Positions 21,512-23,505 of a stretch of 64,000 nucleotides of DNA are shown here, piece by piece (position 1 is the stretch's first letter; every line of letters begins with the position of its first letter). A program made the translations under genes and the position numbers. Under the pieces are notes generated by a model that did not search any database, was not told where the DNA came from, and saw only the letters and a list, made by a program, of their open reading frames with translations. The DNA lies in contig JAHEFS010000001.1 in assembly GCA_024640045.1 (NCBI GenBank), positions 38,395 to 102,394 on the forward strand. The letters are read 5' to 3'. Source of the DNA: Chromatiales bacterium (GTDB lineage: Bacteria; Pseudomonadota; Gammaproteobacteria; Xanthomonadales; SZUA-36).

Positions 21512-21886
21512 TCAGATTGAGAAGGAAGAACCGCAGCCGCAGGTCGTGGACGCGTTGGGGTTGCGGATGATGAACTGCGATCCTTGCAGGCTCTCGGTGT
21601 AGTCCACCTCGGCGCCTGCCAGATACTGGAAGCTCATCGGGTCGACCAGCAAGGTGACGCCTTCATTGGTGAATGAAAGATCGCCGTCTTCGGCCATCTC
21701 GTCGAAGGAGAAGCCGTATTGGAAGCCCGAACAGCCACCGCCCTGGATGTAAACGCGCAGCTTCAGGTCGGGGTTTCGTTCTTCCAGAATCAGTTCCAGT
21801 GCCTTGCGGGCGGCAGCGTTGGTGAAAACGATGCCTGGTGGGGATGTCTGTGCTTCCATGAAGGTTTGGGGTGCTCTAATCGTCAT
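21512..21886 (-). CDS. erpA: A-type iron-sulfur cluster insertion protein ErpA
   Basis: An A-type carrier that delivers Fe-S clusters to apo-targets. The three ligand cysteines are Cys52 ([11 protein letters not shown]) and Cys116/Cys118 in the C-terminal [11 protein letters not shown]. The GFSFDE and NPNAS signatures favour ErpA over IscA. Two starts compete. 21886 (124 aa) has GAAG upstream. 21859 (115 aa, nearer the usual length) fits a possible promoter TTGAAA-17-CATAGT at 21927-21899 but has no SD. A candidate small RNA with its own terminator lies just upstream. Confidence 0.93.
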
Positions 21887-21956
21887 TATGGTGACTTCAC
21901 TATGGCGGCAAAAGCAGTGACTTTCAATGAATTCCAACGGTTGCCAATGGATTGCG

Positions 21957-22059
21957 CAAAAAACAAAAAAGCGGCCGAGGCCGCTTCCAGTCTTTCCGTT
22001 ATTGCTTTTTTTCTCTATTAGTTATCGTTGTTTTCGGCAAGGCCCCCAGAAGTTGGGAT
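21957..22059 (-). ncRNA. Candidate small RNA or terminated leader upstream of erpA
   Basis: A promoter-like pair (TTGACG, 17 bp, TATAAA; 22094-22066) is followed on the minus strand by about 100 nt ending in a strong intrinsic terminator (21986-21961). The predicted RNA begins near 22059 with a short CCCA/UGGG hairpin and continues through an A-rich, probably unpaired middle with two GGAAs. It ends in the GC stem and U-tract. No open reading frame of note is inside. It could be a free small RNA or an attenuated erpA leader. I do not recognise it as a known family. Confidence 0.5.
21961..21986 (-). terminator. Strong intrinsic terminator on the minus strand
   Basis: On the minus strand AAGCGGC, CTCG loop and GCCGCTT (21986-21969) form a 7-bp stem followed by TTTTTTGTTTTTT counting the stem end. 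This is a textbook Rho-independent terminator. It closes either the cysQ-side transcript or the short RNA starting near 22059. It precedes erpA by about 75 nt. Confidence 0.85.
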
Positions 22060-22065
22060 GCGGCT

Positions 22066-22094
22066 TTTATACCCTTCAGTCCGCAGTCCGTCAA
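22066..22094 (-). promoter_or_regulatory. Near-consensus sigma-70 promoter, minus strand
   Basis: TTGACG (22094 to 22089) and TATAAA (22071 to 22066) are each one base from consensus and separated by exactly 17 bp. The sequence upstream is A/T-rich (AAAGCTAAAAAGATTT), resembling an UP element. It is the best promoter match I noticed in the window and points at the candidate small RNA and erpA. Confidence 0.7.
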
Positions 22095-22151: not shown

Positions 22152-22943
22152 TTATATATCAGTCACTTTCCCGGGCCAGTCCTGCCCGGCATCGCCGTAC
22201 ACCAGAAATTCGGGGTTGAGCACACTCTCGCGGCGGTTGTAGGCCAGGCGTTCGCCATCCAGGGTCACCACTGCCCCACCGGCTGCTTCTACCACGGCTT
22301 GTGCTGCCGCAGTGTCCCACTCAGAGGTCGGCCCGAAGCGGGGGTAGAAATCAGCCTTGCCTTCGGCCACCAGGCAGAATTTCAGCGAACTGCCCATGCT
22401 GACCATTTGGTGCGGACCAATCGCTGCCAGTCGGCGGGCCGTGTCGGGGTTGGCATGTGAACGGCTACCCACCACGATCGGTGGTGAGGCAGCGGGAATC
22501 CGCACACTGATGGACTCAGGGTGCGCTTCGCCCTTTTGTCTGAAGCAGCCCACATCCCGGGAGCCGAAATAGTCGAGCCCCTGAACCGGCACGTGGACGA
22601 CGCCGATGGCCGGATAATGGTCACGGATCAGGGCGATGTTTACGGTAAATTCGCCGTTTCGATTGATGAACTCCTTAGTGCCGTCCAGTGGATCGATCAG
22701 CCAGAATTCGCGCCAGGCACCACGTTCGGCAAAAGGGATGGCCGCCGATTCCTCCGACATCAGGGGAACCGAAGGGGTCAGTCGTCGGAGCGCATCCCGG
22801 ATCACACGGTGGCTGGCCAGGTCGGCCTGGGTCAAGGGCGAGTCGTCGTCCTTGATGGAAACCTCGAAGTCCCGCTGGTAGATATCGAGAATCGCCTTGC
22901 CGGCTTCGCGGGCAATGGCGACGAGTTCCTGCATCAGATCCAT
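22152..22943 (-). CDS. cysQ: 3'(2'),5'-bisphosphate nucleotidase CysQ
   Basis: CysQ (263 aa) dephosphorylates PAP (3'-phosphoadenosine 5'-phosphate) from sulfate assimilation to AMP. The Li-sensitive phosphatase motifs are present: SPLTQADLASH, LMSEES, FWLIDPLDGTKEFI and the C-terminal SEWDTAAAQAVVEAAGG. Start at 22943 (MDLMQELVAIARE), after GGGGG; the frame to 22988 has no family similarity. It follows nudE by 4 nt and is the last gene of the hisN-nudE-cysQ operon before the terminator region. Confidence 0.94.
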   Translation of the reverse strand: MDLMQELVAIAREAGKAILDIYQRDFEVSIKDDDSPLTQADLASHRVIRDALRRLTPSVPLMSEESAAIPFAERGAWREFWLIDPLDGTKEFINRNGEFTVNIALIRDHYPAIGVVHVPVQGLDYFGSRDVGCFRQKGEAHPESISVRIPAASPPIVVGSRSHANPDTARRLAAIGPHQMVSMGSSLKFCLVAEGKADFYPRFGPTSEWDTAAAQAVVEAAGGAVVTLDGERLAYNRRESVLNPEFLVYGDAGQDWPGKVTDI

Positions 22944-22947
22944 GTGT

Positions 22948-23505
22948 TCAACCCCCTTGATTGATGTTGGCCAGGTAGTCGCGGGCAATGTACAGGGCCG
23001 CGATGGTTCGCCCCTCGGTGCAATCCTCGCGGACGGTCAGCTCCCGCAGGCGGTCCAGCCGCCAGGGCACGACCTCGAGCTGTTCGGGTTCGTCTCCTGG
23101 CAAACGGCTTGGATAGAGATCGCGGGCCAACACGATGTGGGTCAGATGCGTCATGTAACCTGGGGCGAGGCTGAGGCGGTTGAGCAACACCAGTTCCCGT
23201 GCAGCGAATCCTGCTTCTTCTTGCAGCTCACGTTGTGCGGCTTCGAGCACGGACTCGTCCCGTTCCAGTCGTCCCTTGACCAGCCCGATCTCGTAGTGGT
23301 GCAGCCCGACGGCGTATTCCTTGACCAGCAGCACGGTATCGTCGTCCTGCATGGGCACCACGATCACCGCACCCAGACCACGGCTGCGCAGGCGCTCGTA
23401 GGAGCGGCGCTCGCCATTGGAAAACTCGAGATCCACCTGCTCGATGGTGAACAGTTTGCCGGGGTCGAGCTCGCGCCGGTCCCTGATTTTGGGCAAGCGC
23501 GCCAT
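22948..23505 (-). CDS. nudE: ADP compounds hydrolase NudE
   Basis: A 185-residue Nudix hydrolase. The Nudix box runs GRLERDESVLEAAQRELQEE then AGF. The N-terminal FTIEQVDLEFSNGERRSYERL and LAPGYMTHLTHIVLARDLYPS are NudE-like. NudE hydrolyses NADH, Ap3A and ADP-ribose. The ATG at 23505 shares one base with the hisN-like stop (TGATG). Pairing with cysQ is common in gammaproteobacteria and fits clearance of adenine nucleotides. Confidence 0.93.
   Translation of the reverse strand: MARLPKIRDRRELDPGKLFTIEQVDLEFSNGERRSYERLRSRGLGAVIVVPMQDDDTVLLVKEYAVGLHHYEIGLVKGRLERDESVLEAAQRELQEEAGFAARELVLLNRLSLAPGYMTHLTHIVLARDLYPSRLPGDEPEQLEVVPWRLDRLRELTVREDCTEGRTIAALYIARDYLANINQGG

Follow-up and report, generated by a model that had tools for sequence, protein, structure and literature searches.

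Small RNAs that bind Hfq through an A-R-N site, among them MgrR, ChiX, and CyaR, have a well-established layout. These enteric RNAs of the Hfq Class II type are short and intergenic, follow a sigma-70-like promoter, and carry an A-rich A-R-N-type tract and a U-tailed intrinsic terminator in an Hfq-encoding genome. CrcZ, the Hfq/Crc-titrating RNA of Pseudomonas, likewise joins an A-rich unpaired segment to a terminator, and the 5'-UTR attenuators of amino-acid operons consist of a promoter, ~100 nt, and a terminator, often before argC. The locus that we describe here resembles all three. It probably encodes a real, old, and undescribed small RNA, and we think it fairly likely that this candidate is a stand-alone, Hfq-associated RNA acting in trans.

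An element between cysQ and erpA

The window (the whole 64,000-nucleotide stretch of DNA that we analyzed) carries the element on its minus strand. A -35 hexamer, TTGACG (22089 to 22094), is separated by a 17-nt spacer from a -10 hexamer, TATAAA (22066 to 22071), downstream of which AUCCCAACUUCUGGGGGCCUUGCCGAAAACAACGAUAACUAAUAGAGAAAAAAAGCAAUAACGGAAAGACUGGAAGCGGCCUCGGCCGCUUUUUUG ends near 21964. The predicted small RNA of ~96 nt (21964 to 22060), with its start placed from the promoter and its end from the U-tract, opens with a local hairpin found by folding, CCCA-ACUUC-UGGG (22045 to 22057). The candidate seed recognized by alignment, GGGGGCCUUGCC (22036 to 22047), takes the form GGGG(U/C)CUUGCC in the window's family and is followed by an A-rich single-stranded stretch at 21987 to 22035, a span whose composition (58% A), A-R-N-like triplets, and unpaired state in folds make it a candidate site for the distal face of Hfq. 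The intrinsic terminator, AGCGGC-CUCG-GCCGCU plus U6 (21965 to 21985), was identified by a terminator scan, which placed the hairpin at 21988 to 21967, and by family alignment. Upstream lies cysQ (22152 to 22988, minus strand; PF00459, Inositol_P); downstream lie erpA (21512 to 21868, minus strand; PF01521) and, beyond it, nudC, a NUDIX gene that includes a zinc ribbon; the genes were assigned with Pfam. A first-pass annotation of this DNA had proposed just such a module, and its description stands: the TTGACG-17-TATAAA promoter is present at 22094 to 22066 of the minus strand and kept in relatives, the ~100-nt layout of 5' hairpin, A-rich center, and terminator is confirmed with a 5' hairpin that is weak in the window, the Pfam matches bear out the placement between cysQ and erpA, and the reported lack of coding potential agrees with our finding of no start codon or frame common to members.

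We propose that a sigma-70-type promoter would make a non-coding RNA of ~95 to 125 nt, ended by the intrinsic terminator, in which the 5' hairpin is followed by an unpaired, A-rich middle and then by the hairpin of the terminator with its U-tail. Hfq would bind the A-rich tract and the U-tail, and the exposed segment that follows the 5' hairpin would base-pair with target mRNAs. Transcription, Hfq binding, and base pairing are all inferred here from sequence.

Judged on single-sequence statistics only, the module in the window could be chance. The RNA folds mildly better than shuffles of that single sequence (z -1.6), and its CCCA/UGGG hairpin is unremarkable when the window is taken alone (p ~0.13 to 0.24). 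The surrounding 2 kb shows no excess of terminators (2 found versus 2.0 expected from shuffles), and the TTGACG-17-TATAAA promoter is absent from the list that the terminator scan returned. In our judgment, the comparative evidence settles the module as real, with promoter, RNA, and terminator forming one conserved, single-copy unit with sharp edges.

Conservation, distribution, and locus history

The first-pass annotation had staked its proposal on the promoter, 5' part, and terminator being conserved together, and a DNA search found the same unit upstream of erpA in relatives. When identity is profiled with the -10 box or the terminator as anchor, the values for the family stay at a background of 0.23 to 0.31 outside the unit and rises above it only from the -35 box to the U-tract. 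The aligned family members have in common TTGAC, TATAA, GGGG(U/C)CUUGCC, the A-rich tract, and AGCGGCUUCGGCCGCUUUUUU; all of them read TTGACG or TTGACC at the -35 position, and the -10 hexamer is 0.94 identical with TATAA kept. In one genus (g9; L093, L090, and L100), a palindrome, GCGTCAACTTGACGC, takes in the -35 box as one of its halves and may be where a regulator binds over the promoter.

In the terminator stem, identity is near 1.0 in the window's family, and the GCGGC/GCCGC stem is invariant in 24 family members; conservation of this stem across the class is a biased measure, as the covariance models select for it. If one mismatch at most is tolerated, the 20-mer of the terminator occurs once per genome and only at this locus in 11 of 12 genomes, the twelfth being a genome of genus g12 without the RNA, so the stem sequence is not merely a common terminator of these bacteria. 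Covarying stem bases, which the first-pass annotation had suggested looking for, are almost absent from the terminator: 21 sequences hold one compensatory pair, and 45 of 500 shuffles equal it. This near-absence arises because the stem hardly varies, and the evidence is therefore sequence conservation, not covariation. An insulating promoter-terminator pair whose short RNA has no function would leave us with an inert RNA compatible with all of our results, yet the terminator sequence is conserved and is unique in each genome tested, the family has kept its 5' motif, and a 5' hairpin and A-rich composition are maintained across families, which makes this explanation highly improbable.

A covariance model built from 24 sequences of the window's family only (R1) scores the window copy at 84.6 bits and detects the RNA in 30 of 39 family genomes, with exactly one copy in each; a broader model, R2, likewise gives single copies in the family. 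Six of the nine family genomes without the RNA belong to one genus, g12, which has kept erpA and Hfq; the RNA is therefore dispensable. Outside the family, R1 matches nine genomes of the class, in every case at one locus, hemJ | RNA > argC > DUF6776 > bactofilin > erpA, with hemJ divergent upstream of the RNA in some. TTGAC also precedes the more distant copies. R2, with which 369 genomes were searched, gave 28 non-own matches. Of the 19 with an E value of 5e-4 or better, 18 belong to the hemJ/argC/DUF6776/bactofilin/erpA locus, and the remaining one is similar to a copy among these 18 and looks like its paralogue. Within ~1.5 kb of R2 matches we found argC in 16 cases, DUF6776 with bactofilin and erpA in two, and hemJ in two. 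These 20 matches fall in 11 families, which with the window's family and family f9 (L139, L134, and L181) brings the total to at least 13 bacterial families. Eight R2 matches belonged to the training set of that model, so it is R1 that provides the clean test. As the terminator is part of both models, they under-count copies with other terminators, such as L139, which was found by position alone and has a different terminator stem. Weak R2 matches in L242, L247, L250, and L251 were treated as probable false positives. One genome (G392) holds two similar copies of the RNA, one ~400 nt before argC (L249) and the other elsewhere between other genes (L232).

Several neighbors of distant copies deserve record in their own right. 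A Fur-family gene (PF01475) and a bacterioferritin-like gene lie upstream of the RNA at L217 and L237 (genome G304). The upstream divergent gene at L243 and L246, and at L211 and L212, looks like a ClcA-type chloride channel when read from sequence, and the argA-like gene downstream of the L243 copy is a second link to arginine besides argC.

On the comparative evidence, hemJ | RNA > argC > DUF6776 > bactofilin > erpA is the ancestral locus of the RNA, and the cysQ-RNA-erpA arrangement in the window derives from it by shrinkage. The window's family has lost argC from its place next to the RNA, and DUF6776 precedes erpA in most members. In the window's order, relatives of ArgC are distant (~35 to 42% identical) and located elsewhere. 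The window genome has lost DUF6776 from the locus as well. Relatives have the DUF6776 start, ATGCG, ~6 nt after the U-tract, and the resemblance to it of the bases just after the window's U-tract (TTGCGCAATCCA...) suggests a remnant; judging from the relatives, the probable remnant of this gene start (TTGCGCAAT..., an 11-residue reading) occupies 21924 to 21959 of the minus strand. Because the cysQ-RNA-erpA order is derived, it does not point to Fe-S regulation, and the association of the RNA with cysQ is incidental.

Free RNA, leader, or decoy

The first-pass annotation had left open a free small RNA or a leader tuning erpA. The free RNA is favored by the conserved unit and by the lack of an Rfam family; as a general explanation the erpA leader is not supported, since the gene downstream of the RNA varies and no antiterminator pairing was found. 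No more than a few genomes have erpA in that place; others have argC, DUF6776, or DUF3683, and the neighbor is convergent in L232 (a GGDEF gene) and in L243 (an AA_kinase plus GNAT, argA-like gene). Given this variation and the two convergent cases, we find a stand-alone RNA the best fit.

A broader form of the leader idea is a terminated attenuator, in which the unit is the promoter of an argC-DUF6776-erpA operon, regulated or leaky read-through sets expression, and the short RNA is a by-product. The unit does head the same cluster in most lineages. At eight family loci, all of one clade, the DUF6776 ATG stands 6 nt after the U-tract, which leaves no room for a second promoter, so that DUF6776 must be read through the terminator in that clade; several other members have only ~20 to 45 nt between the U-tract and the next gene. 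Against this, complementarity of the leader to the stem is at shuffle level (mean p 0.48), with no terminator-disrupting alternative pairing above shuffles, and no conserved ORF or leader peptide was found in the RNA among members. Furthermore, the downstream gene changes, read-through into the next gene is impossible where that gene is convergent (L232 and L243), and at L181 erpA is separated from the RNA by ~870 nt in which no long ORF was found. We consider the attenuator unlikely, and read-through into the operon beside a free RNA possible in some clades.

We return to the stand-alone RNA and to its parts. With 21 members combined, the 5' region is more stably folded than its dinucleotide shuffles, at a Stouffer z of -5.9 that is an upper estimate because related members are not independent. 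This value owes most to distant members, whose 5' hairpins are strong and unrelated in sequence; the hairpin is weak in the window's family. The GGGG(U/C)CUUGCC segment is near-invariant in most family members but lost or changed outside the family and, by a replacement inside it, in genus g8. Exact 12-nt complements of this candidate seed occur almost only at the RNA's own locus, no perfect complement that could mark a target was found at conserved places, and pairing of the RNA with the starts of erpA, cysQ, nudC, or nudE is no better than that of random 60-mers. In each of two clades, six bases at the RNA's 5' end can form a long-range pairing with six just ahead of the terminator, by a different sequence in each (GUUCUG/CAGAAC and UCCUGU/ACAGGA); the window's group has no such pairing, and it was set aside.

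The middle of the RNA is 41 to 65% A across the family, the longest A-R-N runs are modestly above composition shuffles (mean z ~1 over 39 members), the U-tail is present, and Hfq is encoded in 26 of 26 genomes examined. A rival reading is a decoy for Hfq, or for an Hfq/Crc-like system: like CrcZ of Pseudomonas, the RNA would titrate Hfq, here through its A-rich tract, and could do without a target-specific seed. It is the scaffold (a 5' hairpin of any sequence, the A-rich tract, and the terminator) and not the seed that persists across families, and some members carry long runs such as AAUAAUAAUAACAAU. The tract is short compared with that of CrcZ, however, the A-R-N runs of the window's family are hardly longer than composition predicts, the CrcZ model matches poorly, and the family has conserved GGGG(U/C)CUUGCC, a motif for which a decoy would have no use. 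We hold a decoy to be very unlikely. Distinctly unlikely, too, is a reading in which a small RNA spanning much of the Gammaproteobacteria and tethered to the hemJ/argC/erpA locus has kept its scaffold and terminator-stem sequence but swapped its 5' target-pairing part between lineages, the scaffold (through Hfq titration or the stem sequence itself) being the ancestral function. The split pattern itself, with the scaffold kept and the 5' part replaced, would let one ask how small-RNA seeds turn over.

Comparison with known RNA families

The first-pass annotation recognized no known RNA family and suggested Rfam as the check; the result agrees, with no family at gathering or relaxed thresholds. 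With Rfam 15 at the gathering score, the loci of 20 relatives gave no match, and the sole match in the window is an SAH riboswitch elsewhere (RF01057; 48889 to 48976, plus strand; 64 bits versus a cut-off of 37). SraL (RF01408), whose overall layout is similar, had the best Rfam score in a focused scan, 18.6 bits versus a gathering score of 39, which we judged a chance, composition-level match and did not take as homology. CrcZ (RF01675) reached 10.5 bits versus a gathering score of 95. Our literature searches yielded nothing relevant on a small RNA at argC, hemJ, cysQ, or erpA; argC does come up in a Bordetella paper, but in an unrelated connection.

If it is transcribed, this is a small-RNA family outside Rfam that is found in at least 13 gammaproteobacterial families, and it sits beside genes of heme (hemJ), arginine (argC), and Fe-S (erpA) biosynthesis. 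It offers a defined single-copy object for study, which the covariance models can find in cultured relatives.

Set against the systems with which we began, the RNA differs from the attenuators of amino-acid operons in having no leader peptide, no antiterminator, and no conserved downstream gene, and from CrcZ in having about a quarter of its length and a different locus. From MgrR, ChiX, and CyaR it is set apart by a different locus, the lack of an Rfam match, and Hfq binding that is a prediction. It is nevertheless with these Hfq-type small RNAs that it most likely belongs, as an RNA family absent from Rfam but of an already known kind.
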